Source of the DNA: a virus
Virus record (IMG/VR): IMGVR_UViG_3300048919_000181
Coordinates: 1-22,134 of that record
DNA: 22,134 nucleotides
Direction: 5' to 3' (one strand)
The notes below the pieces were generated by a model, which was given only the letters and a program-made list of their open reading frames with translations, was not told the DNA's origin and did not search any database. This document shows, piece after piece, positions 231 to 8,258 of the stretch (the stretch's first letter is position 1; every line of letters starts with the position of its first letter). The translations under genes were made by a program, and so were the position numbers.

Positions 231-476
231 TCATGACATTCTCTTGAAATATAATGTTTCCACTACACCAAGTCTATACGTGTGTTCAACTACAGATTTA
301 GTGTGTGCAATGAAAATGCTCTCAATTTCAAAATTAAATTCAGCATCATTCATTTGTTTCTTTTTGTCCATAATATTCAGCAGGGCCTGATAATACTCAG
401 ATTCAGGATCAAGCTTGCATTCCGAAATTTCTTCTGACCTATGCTGTATAACGGGTTCTAGCCATTGCTCAATCAT
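231..476 (-). CDS. Small hypothetical acidic protein
   Basis: An 81-residue protein, rich in Glu, Asp and Lys, with no signal peptide, membrane segment or recognised motif. A GGGGG ribosome site lies 7 bases before the ATG, and the stop codon is followed at once by a strong hairpin, so it has the anatomy of a real gene. It diverges from the small HTH gene at 531, only 54 bases away. Function is unknown. It could belong to the prophage edge or to the host. Confidence 0.6.
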   Translation of the reverse strand: MIEQWLEPVIQHRSEEISECKLDPESEYYQALLNIMDKKKQMNDAEFNFEIESIFIAHTKSVVEHTYRLGVVETLYFKRMS

Positions 477-530: not shown

Positions 531-740
531 ATGAATCCCTTACCAGGGAGAAGCCGTTTGCCCTACCTCTTGGCCCGTAAGAAAATGAAGCAAACCGATT
601 TAGCGGCTAAGTTGGGCTTGACTGATGGATTCATTTCTCAAGTCATAAGTGGAAAACGTTTCTTTTCTTATCCAACTGCCGCACATGCAGCCAAAATACT
701 GGGCTGTACTATGGAAGAACTTCACGAATGGGAAGACTAG
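531..740 (+). CDS. Small XRE/Cro-type helix-turn-helix regulator
   Basis: A 69-residue protein that is almost entirely one XRE helix-turn-helix domain: the QTDLAAKLGLTDGFISQVI segment gives the two helices and the turn, and ISGKR is the typical end of the recognition helix. The frame stays open upstream to 465, but I choose ATG 531 because AGAGGTG lies about 7 bases before it and the candidate promoter start is near 501. No sensing domain is present, so it is a Cro-like or antirepressor-like DNA-binding protein. It ends at a GC-rich terminator. Its target is unknown; the nearby intergenic region is an obvious candidate. Confidence 0.8.
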   Translation: MNPLPGRSRLPYLLARKKMKQTDLAAKLGLTDGFISQVISGKRFFSYPTAAHAAKILGCTMEELHEWED

Positions 741-956: not shown

Positions 957-981
957 AAAAAAGAGCCGCTATTTGCGACCC
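957..981 (-). terminator. Intrinsic terminator of the agr-like operon
   Basis: Immediately after the LytTR gene's TAA (984-982) the minus strand reads GGGTCGC, a 5-base loop, GCGGCTC and then six T. All seven pairs can form, two of them G-T. The stem begins on the base after the stop codon, so the operon ends cleanly here. Confidence 0.85.
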
Positions 982-1353
982 TTATGTCAGTGCTACTCTT
1001 GGATTCATTGCAATAAGTTCTTCCATGAAGTGGTTGTATCTATGATTAACGATCTCGCACCGAATGGATTTTTTGGTGATCACCCTGTCGAAATATGCCT
1101 CTTTGTATATCTCATTCACCGAGACCACTTTTTCCGTATTAATAATCGTGGCTCTATCTACATGGAGAAATTTGTACCCCATATTATTCATGGCATTCAA
1201 CCAATATTTAACTGGGCCAGGTAAGTAATACGTACCTACAGTTGAATATATGACCGAGCGATCAATCGGACCATCCCACCTCATGAAGTAAATGGACTCC
1301 ATGTGTATGTCAAGAATTTTACCGCCTTCTGGTTTAGTTGTGACTGATAGCAT
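982..1353 (-). CDS. Stand-alone LytTR-domain DNA-binding regulator
   Basis: A 123-residue protein that is essentially one LytTR DNA-binding domain, the domain found at the C-terminus of AgrA. The typical core is visible: YKFLHVDRATIINTEKV (60-76), then VNEIYKEAYFD (79-89) and a C-terminal VNHRYNHFMEEL (102-113), matching the family's conserved S/NxRY...L end. There is no receiver domain, so it cannot accept phosphate from a kinase in the usual way. AGGAG lies 7 bases before the ATG and overlaps the stop codon of the AgrD-like gene, placing both on one transcript. It is the last gene before a strong terminator. I infer that it is the output of the kinase-less agr-like circuit. Confidence 0.85.
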   Translation of the reverse strand: MLSVTTKPEGGKILDIHMESIYFMRWDGPIDRSVIYSTVGTYYLPGPVKYWLNAMNNMGYKFLHVDRATIINTEKVVSVNEIYKEAYFDRVITKKSIRCEIVNHRYNHFMEELIAMNPRVALT

Positions 1354-1363
1354 GATACCACTC

Positions 1364-1489
1364 CTATTTTTTGAGCAATTCTTTTGGTGGCTTAGGGTTG
1401 GAAACCCAAGCTAAGCTTGCTGGAACCACCGAAATTTTAGCTATACCATTAAGCGCACTCGCTGCTACTGAATAAATCATAGCCTTCAT
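1364..1489 (-). CDS. agrD: AgrD-like cyclic lactone autoinducer precursor peptide
   Basis: A 41-residue peptide: an N-terminal amphipathic part (MKAMIYSVAASALNGIAK), a central PASLAWV and a charged tail SNPKPPKELLKK. Aligning the PPKEL tail with the VPKEL tail of S. aureus AgrD puts Ser25 on the ring-forming cysteine and Val29 on the cleavage residue. The predicted signal ring is therefore Ser-Leu-Ala-Trp-Val closed as a lactone rather than a thiolactone. The ribosome site AGGAGGTG lies inside the end of agrB, whose TAA is one base from this ATG, and the next gene's ribosome site overlaps this gene's TAG. Gene order and spacing are typical of agrBD. The length of the exocyclic tail cannot be read from sequence. 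Confidence 0.85.
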   Translation of the reverse strand: MKAMIYSVAASALNGIAKISVVPASLAWVSNPKPPKELLKK

Positions 1490-1490
1490 G

Positions 1491-2024
1491 TTATTTTTCA
1501 CCTCCTTTATGAAATACATATGCTGCCAACATCAGACCCTGCATAAAGAATGCTATTGCAACAAATGTCGATTCAAACCAAAAATTAGAAGCTATGATAA
1601 CAATTCCAGATATCTTTAATATCGGATAAAATTTCTCAGGTATTATAGTTTGGTCTTCAATTCCTGCTGGCGCAAAAATAAGTACGAAAATCAACGCAAA
1701 TAATGTTAATAATGTCGTTGCAAAATGTCCAATCGATACCAATGATAACACTGTAGCCACACCAGCCGTAGCCACCGCGCACCAAGTGCTAGATTCCAAG
1801 TGTAGCCCGCCCGTTAGCTGCCTGAGGATAGCAAAAGAGAAAAGTAGTATTGCCGCCTCTTTTCCTTGTCCAGTAAAAAACGAACCTAAGATGCTTAAAC
1901 CTATAACTGTTATGAAATTAAGTGAAATAATGAGTGAATGATTAAGGTTTTCTATGGGTGCAGGGTGATCAGGAGTAACAGATTTTATATGTTTGGCAAT
2001 ACGCCAAGCCAGTGCCTCTATCAA
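1491..2024 (-). CDS. agrB: AgrB-like membrane endopeptidase (autoinducer processing)
   Basis: A 177-residue polytopic membrane protein of the accessory gene regulator B family, which cleaves the AgrD C-terminus and closes the signal ring. The catalytic pair is present in the usual context RQLTGGLHLESSTWC: His75 and Cys82, seven residues apart, as in S. aureus AgrB His77/Cys84. Five or six hydrophobic helices follow. The start is TTG at 2024, the only in-frame start that keeps the N-terminal helix, and it overlaps the upstream gene's TGA (TTGA), suggesting translational coupling. The ribosome site is weak. AgrD follows after one base. Confidence 0.92.
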   Translation of the reverse strand: MIEALAWRIAKHIKSVTPDHPAPIENLNHSLIISLNFITVIGLSILGSFFTGQGKEAAILLFSFAILRQLTGGLHLESSTWCAVATAGVATVLSLVSIGHFATTLLTLFALIFVLIFAPAGIEDQTIIPEKFYPILKISGIVIIASNFWFESTFVAIAFFMQGLMLAAYVFHKGGEK

Positions 2025-2647
2025 TACTCTTCTCTCTCTTTCTTAATGGCGTAATATAGGATCATAGCAACAGCTAAAGCCATATGTACGATCACTAACA
2101 ATTTGTTGTTGAGGTAAAACATTATAGTAGAAACGATGAGTGACAATACAATAAATATCGCTACTCCAATGTGTTCCCATTTTAATCTAAACTTTTCAAA
2201 ATCGGCTGTGAATCCGATCTTGAATTTCAGCAAAAAATAAGTAGTACCCAAAGCAACTATGCTCGTTACTGCTTGTAAGGCCGATCCCTCAGCTGATGTT
2301 GCTAGTGAAGTAGTGTCGACTCCACGAAAAAAGGTGAATAAGATAGCTGTTTGAACAACTGTGTAGCTAAATGTACCCAGAATAGCAATTATAGACGACC
2401 ACATAACCGGAACCTTCACTACCGTAGTAATAAGCAAAATATAGAGCATTGTACTTATGGCTGGAGCCAGCGGCGCCATGTATGTTTCTTCCCGCATTAG
2501 ATAACTCTGAAAATTCATAAGCAGACTCATAAAAAGACCAGCCCAGATGAATCTCTTCACTTTTATTCTAAAGATTGCAAGCATCAGGGCAAAGGCTGAC
2601 ATCGTTTCCAACGTTGAAAAAAGTAGAAACCGGACAGGCTCCCACAT
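2021..2647 (-). CDS. AgrC-like membrane sensor lacking a kinase domain
   Basis: A 208-residue integral membrane protein with about seven hydrophobic segments (roughly 5-26, 31-49, 57-76, 80-104, 118-136, 154-175 and 177-199 from ATG 2647). Its length and topology resemble the N-terminal peptide-sensing half of AgrC-type receptors. It ends ten residues after the last helix (IKKEREEY), where AgrC proteins continue into a coiled coil and a GHKL ATPase. The stop codon overlaps the agrB start, so no kinase is encoded downstream. I choose ATG 2647 because AAGGAG lies 9 bases before it; a GTG at 2665 has no ribosome site. I infer a receptor or an inhibitor that acts directly on the LytTR protein. 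AgrC kinship rests on topology and context, not on an alignment. Confidence 0.7.
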   Translation of the reverse strand: MWEPVRFLLFSTLETMSAFALMLAIFRIKVKRFIWAGLFMSLLMNFQSYLMREETYMAPLAPAISTMLYILLITTVVKVPVMWSSIIAILGTFSYTVVQTAILFTFFRGVDTTSLATSAEGSALQAVTSIVALGTTYFLLKFKIGFTADFEKFRLKWEHIGVAIFIVLSLIVSTIMFYLNNKLLVIVHMALAVAMILYYAIKKEREEY

Positions 2648-2670
2648 CACACATTTCTCCTTCACTTATC

Positions 2671-2694
2671 AATTAAATTAACTATTTAATTATA
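2671..2694 (-). promoter_or_regulatory. Promoter -10 and overlapping AT-rich palindrome before the agr-like operon
   Basis: On the minus strand a consensus TATAAT (2694-2689) lies about 40 bases before the sensor gene. No good -35 exists at 16-18 bases (TATGGA is the nearest), which suggests an activator-dependent promoter. A palindrome with perfect 8-base arms, AATTAAAT (2671-2678) and ATTTAATT (2684-2691), overlaps the -10 and the likely start region and could be an operator. I found no convincing pair of LytTR-type direct repeats upstream. Confidence 0.5.
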
Positions 2695-2735
2695 GTGTAA
2701 GGAGTGGCAATTCCATAGCCAAAATAATACAAAAG

Positions 2736-7569: not shown

Positions 7570-7935
7570 TTATTTCCCCTCCTTCTCTACCTTCACAATG
7601 ACCTTTGGATCAATATTCACAGCTCGTTCGATATACTCCATACGAGTCTGTATGCGTTCCAAGGTAGCTACCATCCTCGCTTGTACTCTTTCCGTTTTGT
7701 CCAAGTGGGTCATTAATCGTTCTTCTCGCTCTTTTGCTTCAGCTTTGTTTGCGTCAATAAGTTCATTAAGCTTCTGTTCGCGCTTGTTTGACTCTTCACG
7801 GCTCTCTTTGATCTGCTCCTTTTGATCTCTGATCATAATCCAAATAAGTACGGAAATAGCAAGTACCGCCAACGGCATCCATGCTCCTGTTTTAAGAAAC
7901 CCTGCAAACAACGTCCATACAGCCACTACGTCCAT
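7570..7935 (-). CDS. BhlA/UviB-like holin with coiled-coil tail
   Basis: A 121-residue protein: N-terminal membrane helix (about 15-37, GAWMPLAVLAISVLIWIMI) followed by RDQKEQIKESREE and a long charged coiled coil. This fits the BhlA/UviB holin-like family, though it is longer than usual. ATG 7935 shares its A with the upstream TGA (TGATG) and has AAGGTGG 7 bases before it; a GTG at 7941 is less well placed. The coupling suggests matched amounts with the ComEA-like protein. It stands just upstream of the endolysin. Confidence 0.75.
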   Translation of the reverse strand: MDVVAVWTLFAGFLKTGAWMPLAVLAISVLIWIMIRDQKEQIKESREESNKREQKLNELIDANKAEAKEREERLMTHLDKTERVQARMVATLERIQTRMEYIERAVNIDPKVIVKVEKEGK

Positions 7936-8258
7936 CACCACACCACCTTTCCGATGAGTCCTTGTATTTTCCCATCCCCTATCCCATCGACCCGTATAAG
8001 GTCGTACACGCTGCCATAAGGTCTGTTGTCAATGATTTTGTTCGCTAGTGTTTCCCCGATACCGGGCAGTGATTTCAATTCATCCACACTGCCCTTGTTA
8101 ATGTTTATTTTCGTAACGTCATCTGACTGAGATACTTGTATGTTGATATTATTGACGTTGTCTGCTCTAGTACCGTGTATCACCGCTATCAAGCTGGCTA
8201 TAAACATTAAGCATAGCGCGACAACAATGACGACACGGTAAAATCTCTCTCTATTCAC
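7935..8258 (-). CDS. ComEA-like membrane-anchored helix-hairpin-helix protein
   Basis: A 107-residue protein from GTG 8258: one membrane helix (about 8-28), an Asn/Ser-rich linker, then a ComEA-type double helix-hairpin-helix domain, ININKGSVDELKSLPGIG (51-68) and VYDLIRVDGIG (84-94). ComEA binds incoming double-stranded DNA outside the membrane during competence. An in-frame ATG at 8312 lies inside an intrinsic terminator and has no ribosome site, so I reject it. The gene heads the lysis cassette and is coupled to the holin. A ComEA-like DNA-binding protein here is unusual; it may bind DNA outside the membrane or simply be a repurposed scaffold. Confidence 0.85.
   Translation of the reverse strand: MNRERFYRVVIVVALCLMFIASLIAVIHGTRADNVNNINIQVSQSDDVTKININKGSVDELKSLPGIGETLANKIIDNRPYGSVYDLIRVDGIGDGKIQGLIGKVVW

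Follow-up and report, generated by a model that had tools for sequence, protein, structure and literature searches.

A four-gene operon in a Paenibacillus prophage is, judged from its sequence, an agr quorum-sensing system without the kinase and the receiver. The window, the whole stretch of 22,134 nucleotides analysed here, is a 22-kb virus record (IMGVR_UViG_3300048919_000181), and the four operon genes were confirmed on its minus strand at the positions given by an initial annotation of this DNA. They follow the order sensor (S), AgrB, AgrD, LytTR and end at a terminator-like hairpin. The initial annotation had listed a seven-helix sensor of 208 aa, an AgrB with His75 and Cys82, an AgrD-like peptide, a LytTR protein of 123 aa and a terminator, with the S stop codon overlapping the agrB start; all of these are present, the overlap being formed by a TTG start at 2024. 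We read the operon as agr without phosphotransfer, in which AgrB and AgrD would make a Ser-lactone, S would bind it and S would directly control the LytTR protein, and give this joint reading a probability of about 0.6. The features are as follows.

1-117: start of a ychF-like host gene, at the left edge of the window
231-476: unmatched small gene, between the prophage end and ychF
540-740, plus strand: Cro/CI-type helix-turn-helix (HTH) gene, convergent to the operon; the cassette lies beside it at the prophage end
961..983, minus strand: terminator-like hairpin, after the LytTR gene, closing the operon
982..1353, minus strand: LytTR DNA-binding protein of 123 aa that stands alone, without a receiver
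1364..1489, minus strand: AgrD precursor, 41 aa; NCBIfam TIGR04223 (quorum_AgrD) E 6e-5, above cut-off
1403..1417, minus strand: predicted ring Ser-Leu-Ala-Trp-Val, placed by the position table of AgrD cores; cyclisation putative
1491..2024, minus strand: AgrB, peptide-processing membrane protease, 177 aa; PF04647 E 5.8e-14, phrog_10353 E 6e-28
2021..2647, minus strand: S, seven-helix sensor, 208 aa, by profile an AgrC sensor domain lacking the GHKL kinase
2689..2694, minus strand: -10 element TATAAT, 11 bp downstream of the dyad, kept in orthologous promoters
2706..2720, minus strand: dyad GGCTATGGAATTGCC, a candidate regulator site covering the -35 region of the operon's promoter
7570-7941: neighbour of the amidase gene, matching phrog_1625 (bacteriocin production or immunity) with E 4.8e-17

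The remainder of the window carries contractile-tail phage genes on the minus strand (head, sheath, tape measure and baseplate) together with an amidase and a holin. In the cultivated phages Abouo, Davies and Emery the cassette adjoins integrase and repressor-like genes, and in phage Harrison it adjoins integrase and HTH genes. Phage Davies is reported to form stable lysogens (PMC4168068). Emery and Davies also have a second S-like gene directly before the cassette (L016:2607-3272 and L189:2604-3263). Within the prophage group of the window the cassette follows YolD and winged-helix-like genes. Since this one slot is occupied by quite different versions, including tandem-LytTR cassettes and cassettes of the Lys type described below, the comparison suggests that cassettes are swapped at a fixed prophage site.

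The S protein starts at the ATG at 2647, the start also used by its close homologues. An AlphaFold model predicts seven helices (pLDDT 80, pTM 0.75), and the protein ends after helix 7. No Pfam family was matched by S, DUF3021 and DUF2154 were found in 0/50 S proteins, and a fold search of the model against the PDB and BFVD gave no significant match, the best being VIA with Z 6.8 on single helix pairs. The profile comparison with AgrC sensor domains that the initial annotation had proposed was made by hhalign, using a profile of 47 S proteins against AgrC kinases from agrC-B-D loci of other Bacilli. It returned probabilities of 95-96%, E-values of 3.4e-8 to 5.4e-9 and a score of 64, against at most 29 for 60 block-shuffled AgrC profiles, 20 for a reversed profile and 12 for AgrB. 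With the profile of Ser-type S proteins alone, 206 columns were aligned with AgrC, from the first helix to the last. Three kinases of the agrB-D-C type gave no match, so the relationship is limited to agrC-B-D-type AgrC and points to a single AgrC lineage; two Paenibacillus GHKL sensors compared as single sequences likewise gave nothing. Like S, the kinase gene of the matching lineage immediately precedes agrB. One locus, L146, holds a complete agrC-B-D-A operon with a receiver-LytTR protein of 254 aa and the order seen in the window. Because full operons of this type have the same order, the prophage operon is agr minus both phosphotransfer halves, and by profile comparison S is the sensor domain of AgrC without its kinase.

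At the other end of the operon, the LytTR protein alone reaches E 0.0033 against PF04397, under the gathering score, while 37 of the 42 members of its family match that model. Against the PDB the family profile finds the LytTR domain of AgrA (E 5e-6) and matches ComE in the C-terminal half only. The predicted fold (pLDDT 95) is similar to the AgrA LytTR domain 4xqj (Z 12.8) and to 3d6w (Z 14.0). According to profile and model, this protein is the DNA-binding domain of AgrA and nothing more. The claim that both phosphotransfer halves are missing here is thereby supported, S corresponding to the sensor domain of AgrC and the LytTR protein to the DNA-binding domain of AgrA. In some other cassettes (L088:597-1331, L202, L214, L216 and L188:4691-5413) the place of the single LytTR domain is taken by a last protein of ~240-250 aa; that of L088 was read as two tandem LytTR domains without a receiver. 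No recognised LytTR gene was present in L070 and L075.

Between these two genes lie those for the predicted peptide and its protease. The agrB gene begins with the TTG mentioned above, and His75 and Cys82 are invariant among eleven relatives. The AgrD start at 1489 was placed by homologues. Ser25 of AgrD stands exactly 10 residues before the Pro of PKEL, and because this is the position of the Cys in the thiolactone AgrDs of the comparison set, the ring in the window is probably a Ser-Leu-Ala-Trp-Val lactone. Among 57 distinct ring regions from S-type loci, 29 have Ser or Cys at -10 and 28 have an invariant Lys at -9; none fell outside these two classes, and under the rule applied a few loci yielded no AgrD. 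The window AgrD is of the Ser type. In the sister branch (L014, L015, L016, L033-L036, L082-L086, L088 and L157-L189) the ring position has neither Cys nor Ser, and the invariant Lys follows one residue later in the pattern K-x-x-[ILVFA]. By arithmetic, a ring closed between a Lys side chain and the fourth residue has 16 members, as many as one closed between Ser or Cys and the fifth, which makes the Lys-type AgrDs candidate natural macrolactam autoinducing peptides. No report of lysine lactam autoinducing peptides was found in open-access papers. Four kinase-type agr loci (L144, L147, L151 and L153) likewise encode AgrDs with neither Ser nor Cys but with a Lys (K-V-G-x-[ILF] before YEP) close to the ring position.

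The complete order S-AgrB-AgrD-LytTR, for which the initial annotation had suggested a survey, was found in 64 non-redundant loci across phages, plasmids and genomes, with near-constant gene lengths. All viral contigs found with the AgrB profile contain S, AgrB and LytTR, except one that is cut at the contig end before LytTR. Of 75 genomes of the genus, 40 matched the S profile, with at most six copies each, and in three genomes 10/10 AgrB genes lie beside an S gene. Related AgrB genes occur on four Paenibacillus plasmids, and the cassette was present in all three that were opened. Of the loci L005 and L012, the former is nearer to the window in AgrB and AgrD and the latter in S and LytTR. Two loci next to a mutS2-like gene (L080:1501-2160 and L081:1462-2130) have S but no AgrB, and a small Cys-rich protein is encoded after S. 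We tentatively propose, giving it slightly less than an even chance as a joint statement, that these loci form a phosphorylation-free agr class in phages, plasmids and genomes of Paenibacillaceae and in Brevibacillus phages, with both Ser lactones and Lys macrolactams.

S and LytTR each match only half of their full-length homologues, as they would if both were decayed remains of a full agr operon. Against such decay, the genes are open and of near-constant length in the 64 loci, the promoter element is conserved and dN/dS is mostly <0.1. In the closest group S, AgrB and LytTR have ratios of 0.03-0.1 and AgrD has 0.07-0.3; many comparisons with the window are saturated at silent sites. Given 64 intact loci and ratios mostly of 0.03-0.1, the sequences indicate an intact four-gene cassette under strong purifying selection and contradict decay. 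We therefore consider a relic very improbable, and the concern raised in the initial annotation, that close relatives might reveal decayed fragments, is answered.

We then come to possible phosphotransfer partners. No kinase or receiver gene was found in the 22-kb window, which is a fragment, and no GHKL kinase was found in the window or in 56 phage, plasmid and related loci (464 kb, some overlapping), where positive controls were detected; one receiver-like protein of 264 aa is encoded in L034. In a class-wide sample of Bacilli, GHKL was present at 29/30 top-scoring AgrB loci and S at 0/30, the ranking by AgrB score leaning away from Paenibacillus. A GHKL-LytTR pair without AgrB occurs elsewhere in two of three relatives' host genomes (G002 and G003). 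The initial annotation had named a partner kinase and receiver elsewhere in the prophage as the finding that would overturn its view: the searched phage regions yielded none, but some host genomes do carry such a pair.

These host pairs lend some weight to a split phosphotransfer, in which a host GHKL kinase would partner S while the LytTR protein would compete with the host response regulator at its sites. The same can be said of a chromosomal cassette, G002:C96 (L089, L120 and L122), in which genes for a receiver-LytTR protein and a kinase come after S-AgrB-AgrD-LytTR-tandem LytTR; this arrangement is possibly an intermediate between full and kinase-less agr. Yet in G001, the genome of L010, the best PF14501 match is 4.9e-8 compared with 3.5e-30 in G002, and it has no AgrC-like kinase candidate of comparable strength. 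The GHKL sensors of the host pairs, moreover, have no detectable relation to S as single sequences, and the LytTR protein has no domain to be phosphorylated. A split phosphotransfer is therefore improbable in our judgement, although well ahead of a relic.

Co-divergence of the four genes bears on the direct control of LytTR by S. The strongest distance correlation joins the two outer genes, S and LytTR (0.94; partial 0.58, and 0.69 within the Ser branch), whereas S and AgrB, which are adjacent and overlap, give a partial correlation near zero (0.13 to -0.10). Partial values are 0.41-0.56 for AgrB-AgrD and 0.34-0.40 for S-AgrD, links expected of enzyme and substrate and of receptor and ligand. 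The AgrB-LytTR value of 0.44-0.54 is not accounted for by the model of direct S-LytTR control. In all these correlations the distances are neither independent nor unsaturated and shared ancestry is uncorrected. The co-divergence of S and LytTR favours direct control of one by the other.

Alternatively, S could be a decoy or peptide sink and LytTR a constitutive one-component regulator, the operon tuning or blocking a host or rival agr system. This would suit an S protein without any output domain, a free-standing LytTR protein that could act without input, and the GHKL-LytTR pairs in two of the three host genomes. A pure decoy, however, would not need its own AgrB and AgrD. In addition, S and LytTR are retained together in 64 loci and co-diverge more than the adjacent S and AgrB, and every AgrB in the three relatives' genomes lies beside S, which leaves no other AgrB-linked agr there to jam. 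We regard a decoy as unlikely, if somewhat less so than a split phosphotransfer.

The operon promoter offers a candidate site for the regulator. No good -35 element was found at 16-18 bp from TATAAT in the window's operon promoter. The dyad has a single perfect match within the window. In the related host genomes that were searched, every perfect match lies shortly before an S gene; elsewhere there are few matches with 1 mismatch. When the viral collection was scanned blindly for the dyad's 16 fixed bases, 27 viral contigs were returned. Ten have it ~30-75 bp before an S gene; in one of these, L216, the S reading frame is over-long and includes the dyad. An eleventh is truncated by its contig end, and the remaining contigs are unrelated. 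As matches in both the genomes and the viral collection sit before S genes, the dyad thus appears to belong to S-type operons.

Cassettes share the element even where their LytTR proteins are 13-30% identical, and it is missing in other phage lineages. The dyad for this reason tracks the prophage slot, not the LytTR type, and another regulator may read it. In L005, L017, L019, L029, L049, L076 and L077, from other phage lineages, S directly follows an excisionase-like helix-turn-helix ORF and the promoter dyad is absent. Two further candidates were rejected: a second palindrome at the -10 element, whose symmetry looked conserved but did not exceed that of shuffles, and a dyad of similar form close to the gene for a holin-like toxin in relatives (L012:4414), which lies downstream of genes and is more like a small hairpin.

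Taken together, agr without phosphotransfer would operate as follows. AgrB would cleave AgrD and close the five-residue Ser-Leu-Ala-Trp-Val lactone, and the peptide would be exported. S, by profile the sensor half of AgrC, would bind the peptide at the cell surface and act on the LytTR protein directly, with no kinase or receiver between them. Because phosphotransfer parts are missing, and with HdrRM/BrsRM as an analogy, direct control is the simplest output. Most likely, the cytoplasmic loops of S and its charged C-terminal tail would hold LytTR at the membrane in an inactive state, and binding of the peptide would release LytTR as a transcription factor, the sign of control being our inference. 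The first target would probably be the operon's own promoter at the dyad 2706-2720, giving positive feedback, and other targets would probably be phage genes for lysogeny or the timing of lysis.

The operon resembles agr systems of Bacilli with the agrC-B-D-A order in the His and Cys of AgrB, in the ring and PxEL-type tail of AgrD, and in having an AgrC-homologous sensor and an AgrA-homologous LytTR domain in the positions of AgrC and AgrA. It differs in the missing GHKL kinase, receiver and phosphotransfer, in its Ser ring residue and in being phage-borne. The initial annotation had taken this for an apparently new combination in a prophage. The cassette is however also found on plasmids and in the 40 genus genomes counted above, and AgrC-like membrane proteins without a kinase (HATPase) domain were noted beside AgrB and AgrD in phages Davies, Emery and Abouo by Hargreaves et al. 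2014 (PMC3901668); the passage on those phages mentions no LytTR gene, breadth or homology evidence. Their cassettes are members of the same family as the window but belong to the Lys-type AgrD branch, while the window belongs to the Ser-type branch. Papers on P. larvae and Brevibacillus phages list only the AgrB gene, and we found no description of the four-gene module S-AgrB-AgrD-LytTR in the literature searched. The Clostridioides difficile phage phiCDHM1 likewise carries agrD, agrB and agrC, but its AgrC has a HATPase_C kinase domain and the phage has no response regulator (PMC3901668), so that the parallel is partial, as had been stated.

In the LytTR Regulatory Systems HdrRM and BrsRM, inhibition of a LytTR regulator by a non-kinase membrane protein is established (PMC6193735); positive autoregulation is a further trait of this class. 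They share with the window a LytTR protein without receiver and a non-kinase membrane protein. Their operons, though, have two genes, with the LytTR gene first and the membrane gene directly downstream, compared with S-AgrB-AgrD-LytTR here, and the membrane partner is mostly of DUF3021/DUF2154 (4/5 systems in S. mutans; PMC6193735), domains without a match in the 50 S proteins. They also have direct repeats upstream of the -35 element and no dedicated peptide genes (PMC6193735), whereas the window has a dyad and its own AgrB and AgrD; no such repeats (9-mers, ≤1 mismatch, 10-15 bp gap) were found in the window promoter. The parallel drawn in the initial annotation thus stands as a functional resemblance and does not extend to defining domains, gene order or direct repeats.

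Temperate phages also encode small-peptide signalling of the arbitrium/RRNPP kind. RRNPP systems use an intracellular receptor with an adjacent propeptide (PMC10075063), while the window operon has a membrane receptor and a cyclised peptide, both predicted.

If S controls LytTR directly, the operon would represent a form of agr without phosphorelay on mobile elements, a minimal circuit from peptide to promoter. It would open to experiment the question of how an AgrC-type sensor passes on peptide binding when it has no kinase, and with the Lys-type AgrD branch the range of chemistries known for autoinducing peptides would grow. For the phages themselves, it would mean agr-based communication encoded beside integrase and repressor genes and distinct from arbitrium.
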